This document shows positions 1 through 3,608 of a DNA stretch of 36,634 nucleotides, piece after piece. The position numbers and the translations under genes were made by a program. The number at the start of each line of letters is the position of its first letter. The first letter of the stretch is position 1. The notes below the pieces were generated by a model. It had not been told where the DNA came from and searched no databases. It was given only the letters and a program-made list of their open reading frames with translations. Where the stretch lies: contig MU616608.1 of assembly GCA_025201705.1 (NCBI GenBank), positions 46,942 through 83,575 on the forward strand, written 5' to 3'. The DNA is from Dissophora ornata (lineage: Eukaryota > Mortierellomycota > Mortierellomycetes > Mortierellales > Mortierellaceae).

Positions 1-2362
1 CCCAACGATGAAACTTACTGTTAGAACTGCGACCATGCAGCACATTGTGGTCACCCAGTCAAACATGGCTATTGTGGATTTGCAGGGGGGGAAAAAAGGC
101 GATTTAGCGCTAGGATCGTATCAAGAACCACATCCAGAATTCACATACACACGCCTCTTCCTCACCTGCGCGCGCGATCAACACACTGTAGAACACAAAG
201 TCTCCCAATCCCAACTTCAATCCTCCACCTAGAGAAACGGGCGGTGAATACCAAAGACGATTAGCCTATTGTCATTTTAAACCGTGTGCACCGAATCAAA
301 ATCAGTTAAATCATTCAGATATCCTGGATCAATACCATCGTCATCCTCATCATCGCCGTTGCGGGTATTATCAATACGGCTATCAGGTTGCATTCCAGCG
401 TCCGAGTTTTGTGCCTGCCTGACCGAAGGAGAGCGTCCAGCTCTGTTTGATGACGGACTGCCTTCGGGATTAGTGGGTCCTCCGGAGCGAATTCTCTCTC
501 GTAGTTCAATGTCCCCACGTTCCACAGACTCGTTACTCGTGGCAGGCACGAGTGCAACTGTGGAACCGGCGCCGAAAGAGGCATCAAGGCCACTATTGTG
601 GCTACTACTGATGCTCGCGCCACCTTCCCTGCCTGTCGCACGTGAATGCCCACCAATATAGGCATCTCCATGACTGTTGTCGCCATCCACTAACACATCC
701 TCGACATTAGCTCCTTCCTTTGAACGGTTTGTTTCACGCTCCAGGATGCTGTTCGGCGGCGAGGCCATAAACCATACAGCGTTGACGGTGTAAAGCAGGG
801 CCGGAACGTCCTGGTTTTGATCCCTTGAGCTCTCCACCAGGATCTTGAGTGGACCAAAAGGACAAAGCACTGCAATGAGATCTAGTGCACCAAAATAGAA
901 GTATGTCAATCGTAGCGACGTCTGGGAGAAATAGCGCTCACGAGGGTTCATATATATTCGACATACCCCAGATGACGAGCAATGCCAACAACATCCATGT
1001 AGTCCACTCGGCGAGTCCTGTCAGCGAGAACGCCTATACGCCGAAAAGAAAGAATGGTCAGCTATTGTCCAGGCGTAACAATCCCAAGCTCATCATAATG
1101 ACGATTTATAGTACCATCAAACTGCTCATGACCGTCAGATAGACTTGCTGGAGCCACATTGGACCTTTCCAGAAAACAGATATCAGTCCTGTGACAGCAA
1201 AGTTCCATAGCGCAAAAGACATGGTCACGTAATCCAGCGGGATCCTTAGAACCTGGATCAGATTGAGAACCAGAACGTATCCCATAAATCCAAGCAGCAA
1301 GGCCACGACCACCATAAAGAATCCAATGAGAACCTAATAGTAGCCAATACAAGCGATGGTTGTTAGGAAGAAGGACTTGATGCGTTTTCGGAGAGGCCGT
1401 CCAAATTTAGGTACCTTGATATGCCCTCGCTTAAATAGGATTACAATGATGATTGTAACGATTACAATCTGACCGATGATAATTCCTGCATTGGCAAGCG
1501 ATCCCAGAATGTTTTGCGACACTGTTGAGGTAGACGACTCTGTGTATACGGTGTAAGATGACTGCGTTGGTCTACCATCGAGAACAAGAAAAAGAAGGCT
1601 TATTAGCCATCCCGCTAACGACTGTGCTGCAACATGCTGGAGCTCCCGCAGACGACAGCGTTACCTGTAGTCACTCCCAGCCAAGGAAATCTTGACCCAC
1701 AAAATACTGAGACAGATGCAAATGACGACTGGCTTGATGATCTTGTAGATTTGCAGCATATAAAACTTCATGTCTGCTATCCTCTCTGCCTGCTCGTACG
1801 CTGCCTTTTGCTCTGGTGTCAGTTGAGGCCGTCTCCGTGGTTCCCGTGGTCGTCTTCGAGGCTGGTTCGCCACAGCCCTGACATTCTCAGCTTCGTCTCC
1901 AAGATCGCCCCCCATGGGTCCTGGTACGTTCGAACGTCGCTGGGAGGCCCTTGCGCGGCTCCCCTGTTCCACGTCAGGGTTGGAGCTTGATCCTTCTTGC
2001 TCTTCCTTCTTTGCTGCAACGATTTCTGAACACTCTCGATAATGTGCCCTCCAGTCGGCGGCCTGGCATTCCTGAGAGCAGTATCGGACGCTCTGGCAAG
2101 CTGAACACTGGAATCGAGCTGGAAAGGCGTCGCAAATCTGGCAAGGTTGGTCATCGCCGCTGTTTGCTACCGTCGCCTGACCTTCCGGTCCAGCCTGGCC
2201 CTGAGTGGGAACTTGGGAATCGCGGTTCCCTTCAGGTATAGTGTTGTTGCGAATGGGCGTTGCACTTTGTGATGAATCGGCTCCTGGAGGTGAAGGGTTC
2301 GACTGGGAGAGGAGACCCTGGCCAGGCGGAGCTGTTTCTCCAGGAGTGTCTAGCGCCGACAT
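1..2362 (-). CDS. Presenilin-type intramembrane aspartyl protease with N-terminal MYND zinc finger (3' end outside window)
   Basis: Proposed exons, 5' to 3' on the minus strand: 2362-1665, 1571-1415, 1333-1115, 1033-967, 881-336, 228-166, 68-19, then a GTAAG donor at 18-14. This gives 600 visible codons and all phases agree. Residues 74-111 form a full MYND finger: C74/C77, C86/C89, C95/C99, H107/C111. The first membrane helix (about residues 199-227) lies in the same exon as the finger. Presenilin landmarks follow: FWKGPMWLQQ after the early helices, then D381 in DLIAVLCPFGPLKILVE (first catalytic Asp), PALLY, a long acidic, Ser/Gly-rich loop, and D572 in LKLGLGDFVFYSVL (second catalytic Asp). 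The PAL motif should lie past the left edge. By family it is the catalytic subunit of a gamma-secretase-like membrane protease. The finger's role (protein binding) is inferred. The exon 5 donor (GTATTG) is the least certain join. Confidence 0.9.
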
Positions 2363-3107: not shown

Positions 3108-3608
3108 ATGCCGTCATCAAAGAAAAGTGGCCCGTCCAGGAATGTAAAGCCGGCCACAAAGTCGACTCCCTATAGCAAGAATACCAAGGGTGCCAAGGCT
3201 AACCCTACGCCCACCAACAAAAAGCACAGTGCCCCGCCCAGCAAGCCACACCAAGCTAGGAATAAGCACCTGAACGTCAACCTGACCTCAGAGCTCGACT
3301 CTCTCCTCGGGGACCTCAACAGCCAATTACAGCGAAAAAAGACAAAGAGAGACGCTCGGTTAGACGTAAGCCTTTATTTTTGTTCAGCTTCAGCTTCTCA
3401 ACGGGGTAAACTGTCGTTTAATTCTCGCCGCTTACATCCTGCCTGTTTTTTTTCTCTCTCTTGTATTGGCAATCCTATCCTCTAGTCTATCAGCTCCAAT
3501 GGCGTTTCGGAATCGGAGAAGAGGTTAAACGAGGCTCAGGCAAAGCACGAGTCTTTGCAGGACGACATGATGAGCGCCCTGGATGGCATTTCGTCTCTCG
3601 GGAAGTAA
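3108..3608 (+). CDS. Small basic protein of unknown function, two exons
   Basis: Exons 3108-3365 and 3486-3608 are separated by a 120-base intron (GTAAGC donor, CCTCTAG acceptor), giving 126 residues. The ATG sits in a good fungal context (CATCACCATG). The first half is rich in Lys, Pro, Ser and Thr and is probably disordered and nucleic-acid- or nucleolus-friendly. The second half, from about residue 58 (LTSELDSLLGDLNSQLQRKK) to the end, has heptad-like Leu spacing and charged residues, suggesting a short helix or coiled coil. I do not recognise the family. The clean splice phase and the sudden end of coding character at the stop support a real gene. Confidence 0.65.

Follow-up and report, generated by a model that had tools for sequence, protein, structure and literature searches.

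The window analysed here, a 36,634-nucleotide stretch of Dissophora ornata DNA (contig MU616608.1, positions 46,942 to 83,575), contains most of a minus-strand presenilin gene whose predicted product carries a MYND zinc finger ahead of its membrane part. Presenilin is the cutting subunit of gamma-secretase and is familiar from Alzheimer's research. MYND and Presenilin domains were found together in 90 of the 155 distinct homologues listed in two protein searches (precomputed Pfam annotation); since it recurs to this extent, the architecture is not a product of chance.

The MYND-presenilin gene of Dissophora ornata

The gene was modelled as seven GT-AG exons with the frame kept throughout, predicting 600 residues. 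Exon 1 (2362-1665, minus strand) is 698 bases long and open throughout; an in-frame TGA lies immediately 5' of its ATG, and it closes on a GT donor. Intron 1 (1664-1572) ends in the AG acceptor preceding exon 2, which begins at 1571. This first exon encodes a disordered N-terminal tail, the MYND finger (residues 74-111; 2030..2143), a linker (residues 112-196; 1775..2029) and the first presenilin transmembrane helix (approximately 1676..1744), the last placed by the start of the Pfam Presenilin match at residue 200, by alignment with human PSEN1 and by a helix in the structural model. The linker is predicted to be cytosolic, displays the basic run RRRPREPRRRP and is poorly ordered at residues 128-152 (predicted local distance difference test, pLDDT, <50). 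NCBI record P0001 ("Presenilin-1, partial [Dissophora ornata]", 583 residues) agrees with the gene model letter for letter. An earlier note, made from the sequence alone, had described an uninterrupted 698-base exon joining a MYND finger, a basic linker and helix 1, and both the open frame and P0001 bear this out; the C4-C2HC finger that it placed at C74 to C111 was recovered at exactly these residues. An artefact of gene modelling or assembly was considered and rejected, finger and helix 1 sharing one open exon and the architecture recurring in independent genomes. A single presenilin locus was matched in the 31.4 Mb assembly, with all four exon-wise matches on contig C47, and 13 further MYND matches were located at other places.

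The finger scored 36.9 bits against Pfam zf-MYND (PF01753, cut-off 22.7), its zinc ligands being C74, C77, C86, C89, C95, C99, H107 and C111. Its pLDDT was ~89-95 when modelled with an alignment; folded in isolation and without one, it reached 77.1 and had no match in the PDB. The closest solved fingers by sequence were those of ETO, DEAF-1 and ETO2 (best E 4.6e-05). According to the passages of PMC3555993 that deal with them, T516, Q529 and W533 of DEAF-1 are corepressor-contact positions by comparison with ETO; their counterparts in the sequence alignment are S87, Q100 and W104. Judged by these residues, the finger possesses the putative Ser/Thr, Gln and Trp groove of the peptide-binding ETO/DEAF-1 type. 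It shares these groove equivalents with its nearest sequences, ETO/CBFA2T1 (2od1, 2odd) and DEAF-1 (4a24, 2jw6), but theirs occur in nuclear transcription cofactors, whereas the Dissophora finger is tethered to a polytopic membrane protease.

The presenilin part (residues 200-600) scored 335.8 bits against Pfam PF01080, for a cut-off of 34.3. Exon 2 (1415..1571) encodes the loop after helix 1 and transmembrane segment (TM) 2, exon 3 (1115..1333) approximately TM3 to TM5, and exon 4 (967..1033) TM6 as far as the first base of the D381 codon. The remainder of that codon and the large hydrophilic loop are located in exon 5 (336..881), the GLGD motif in exon 6 (166..228); exon 7 (19..68) ends at a GTAAGT donor, and the gene runs on past the window. 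Both catalytic Asp motifs were thus present in later exons, as the earlier note had claimed. The first, D381 of 'WDLIAVL' (WDLIAVLCPFGPL) in TM6, has its codon divided by an intron (967 / 881-880), and the second, D572 of 'KLGLGDF' (GxGD, TM7), is encoded at 202-200. Conservation was assessed on 55 of the 155 homologues, selected for a recognisable finger by a pattern in which Q was optional and W was not required. All 55 displayed the WDL pattern, 53 displayed GLGD and 52 displayed PALP, to which the relatives continue; the three without PALP include Dissophora's own partial record, the last exon(s) of this gene, where the motif is expected, falling beyond the window.

Homology with human PSEN1 extended over residues 177-435 and 558-599 (E 1.6e-57), and the positions of human D257 and of the GLGD aspartate are conserved. 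The partner subunits nicastrin, APH-1 and PEN-2 are all encoded in the Dissophora genome, each above its Pfam cut-off; for PEN-2 this rests on one exon with a Pfam score (positions 4-47 of 93) and a second exon seen by eye. In contrast, both matched stretches of the 467-residue human chain exclude the MYND finger, and a Trp directly precedes the first catalytic Asp in the fungal protein where the human one has Tyr. This residue was Trp in 143 of the 155 homologues, Tyr in one (green alga P0120) and another residue in four; the pattern was not found in the remaining seven. Drosophila presenilin has Trp there as well.

Distribution and history of the fusion

Both Pfam domains were annotated in 68 of the 120 homologues listed by the first search, which used the gene model as query. 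The second search started from an alignment of ten divergent members and gave 420 matches; 22 of the 35 new homologues among the best 120 of these displayed both domains. Additional fingers lay under the Pfam cut-off (P0057, P0072, P0108) or were seen by pattern (e.g. P0071, P0112). The earlier note had proposed looking for co-occurrence of the two domains in related genomes, absence from all of them being among the outcomes that would refute it, and the result is clearly in its favour, since the fusion proved to be present across early-diverging fungi: in relatives of Mortierella, Mucoromycota, arbuscular mycorrhizal fungi, Zoopagomycota, Basidiobolus, chytrids, blastoclads and one aphelid. 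Holders comprised Mortierella, Lobosporangium, Mucor, Rhizopus, Phycomyces, Rhizophagus, Gigaspora, Calcarisporiella, Syncephalis, Basidiobolus, Rhizoclosmatium, Spizellomyces, Batrachochytrium, Catenaria, Blastocladiella and the aphelid Amoeboaphelidium protococcarum (lineage looked up for six species, other placements from general knowledge). As for a non-fungal origin, all named matches among the best 120 of 420 were fungal or aphelid, and the only named non-fungal match listed in the first search was green alga P0120, which displayed no finger. Among the matches listed, none was named as a nucleariid, choanoflagellate or amoeba. A third protein search was restricted to the finger of P0105; it retrieved the self-match alone and was uninformative on origin.

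Sixteen finger-less models from Mortierellomycotina were compared with exon 1 in its three forward frames. P0028, P0041 and P0050 matched it across the finger in another frame, so that their DNA probably keeps the finger codons and the public models are probably mis-spliced or otherwise annotation errors. The other 13 matched exon 1 only downstream of the finger, and we infer them to be truncated. True loss in Mortierellomycotina was rejected on these grounds. The finger is probably genuinely absent from Neocallimastigomycota (Piromyces P0103; P0095-P0100, P0102, P0106, P0107) and from the aphelid Amoeboaphelidium occidentale (P0141); three of the nine models listed beside Piromyces were placed in the tree, where they cluster with it. 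The gut-fungus-type proteins P0103, P0095-P0100, P0106 and P0107 display no finger but a different N-terminal extension common to them, in which the sequence 'PKLKQELDEY' is conserved. Five chytrid models (P0134, P0138, P0142, P0145, P0148) also lacked the finger, four of them displaying the conserved linker motif described below, and may reflect either truncation or loss. Four homologues (P0047, P0126, P0127, P0152) displayed additional unrelated Pfam domains (e.g. PF06094, PF00514, PF01699) and are possibly merged neighbouring genes.

The tree was built from 49 chosen rows of the 155 and 377 columns, from residue 197 on; it replaced an earlier one because 22-25 finger columns (by two numberings) had remained in that tree. 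The groups recovered were chytrids, blastoclads, aphelids with two further rows, Basidiobolus, Zoopagales, Glomeromycotina, Mortierellomycotina, and Mucoromycotina with Calcarisporiella; Gonapodya and the gut fungi formed long branches outside the chytrid group. With the finger present in 32 rows, absent in six and 11 unclear rows left out, three changes suffice; ten are needed if the unclear rows are scored absent. This pattern suggests that fungi acquired the finger once, early on, and that some lineages then lost it, but several deep forks of the tree are weakly supported. Chances seem about even that fungi have used gamma-secretase from near their origin, the ancestral enzyme recruiting substrates or adaptors through a cytosolic docking arm of its own that grips proline motifs and is absent in animals and plants, the arm having been lost in gut fungi and the enzyme in Dikarya.

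Conservation and proposed role of the finger

Among the 55 members, mean information was 2.63 bits in the finger, 0.81 in the preceding tail, 2.95 in the core and 0.92 in the loop, and amounted to 0.81, 1.26 and 1.33 bits in three successive parts of the linker. Residues C86, C89, Y94, C95, C99, Q100, W104, H107 and the catalytic D381 were invariant. As a control, eight of the 13 other Dissophora MYND fingers were compared in alignments, and all eight retain the Q and W; these two residues therefore mark a working MYND finger in general. The spacer from finger to helix 1 had a median length of 90 residues in the 55 members (range 34-171).

Another conserved element, in the linker, reads approximately RGNxAQ[IVL][IL]N (P0044, P0046, P0067, P0080, P0094, P0105, P0128 and others). 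The pattern AQ[ILVM][IVLT]N was encountered in 23 of the 155 proteins, from chytrids to Glomeromycotina, and appears decayed among the relatives of Mortierella. Human PSEN1 displays 'GNSRQVVEQ' ahead of helix 1.

We consider it rather probable that this presenilin is the catalytic subunit of a fungal gamma-secretase and that its finger is cytosolic, docking the proline motifs of partners or substrates. By analogy with known presenilins, the predicted catalytic subunit would assemble with nicastrin, APH-1 and PEN-2, its finger and N-terminus facing the cytosol. Because known presenilins are cleaved within the TM6-TM7 loop, the finger would stay with the membrane-bound N-terminal fragment after self-cleavage there. 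Its Ser/Gln/Trp groove may, as in known MYND domains, grip a short proline motif; the finger would then act as a flexibly tethered arm, and docking could bring in substrates, an adaptor or a regulator. The interpretation offered in the earlier note stands in part: the fusion is real and tethering is plausible, being the best reading, whereas a nuclear or cleavable module found no support.

It is unlikely that the finger is a stability or quality-control handle by which the N-terminal fragment attracts ubiquitin machinery, so that the finger sets the amount of gamma-secretase instead of bringing in substrates. A fungal precedent exists in yeast Mub1, a MYND protein that acts with the Ubr2 ubiquitin ligase, and the long spacer is compatible with such a handle; the nearest solved fingers, however, are those of ETO and DEAF-1, which speaks against it.

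An intramolecular role, in which the finger would bind the large TM6-TM7 loop at a proline motif and gate self-cleavage or activity, appears quite improbable. Finger and loop are both predicted to be cytosolic, the loop being long and poorly ordered in the model, and PxLxP was found in four of 55 loops, a slight excess over the shuffled mean of 1.23 (two of the 55 rows gave no excisable loop). No motif was family-wide, however: PPPL occurred in none of the 55, PPxL in two (shuffled 1.28) and PxLE in one (shuffled 1.91). A loop ligand thus received little support, PxLxP being the sole clear excess and no motif being common to the family.

That the finger is freed by cleavage and works in the nucleus is very improbable. 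MYND fingers do occur in the transcription cofactors DEAF-1, ETO and BS69, as stated in passages of PMC3555993. Nothing indicates cleavage of the Dissophora finger, though cleavage sites were not searched for. The basic run of the linker would suit a nuclear function, but it lies beside the first membrane helix, where the positive-inside rule predicts basic residues equally well.

Least probable of all, the working protein would initiate at M150 or M198 as an ordinary presenilin with unused finger codons: M150, M198 and M202, all past the finger, are the sole later in-frame Met codons of exon 1, and automated models of the relatives P0035, P0038 and P0042 begin at the M198 equivalent, but an untranslated stretch would not show the protein-level conservation that the finger displays across phyla between poorly conserved stretches, and the three finger-less relatives noted above misread this same exon in another frame.

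Relation to known systems and neighbouring sequence

A gamma-secretase of early-diverging fungi was published in 2023 (Merenyi et al., PMC10406608); in a genome of the Mortierellaceae, the Dissophora gene would supply the catalytic subunit of that enzyme. The main text of that paper, in contrast, mentions neither MYND, nor domain architecture, nor a fusion (PMC10406608). Database entries such as Phycomyces P0065 and Lichtheimia P0069 display the same architecture under MYND-type or Presenilin labels, but these labels are automatic, and no description of the fusion was found in the open-licence literature searched, which mostly excludes subscription journals. The fungal enzyme and, as automatic labels, the fusion were thus already known, and the MYND presenilin as such is apparently undescribed, in that we found no paper on it.

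Gamma-secretase has been studied mostly in animals, where substrate choice is a long-standing question, and we know of no established substrate of the fungal enzyme, for which no search was made. A protein-binding module built into the catalytic subunit, and retained in many of the fungal groups that keep the enzyme, offers a bait for partners or substrates. As a feature of domain architecture, the fusion is also a marker for following the early evolution of fungi.

Elsewhere in the window, a small gene with two apparent exons ('MPSSKKSGPSRN...ISSLGK') is placed divergently to the presenilin gene at 3108-3608 on the plus strand.
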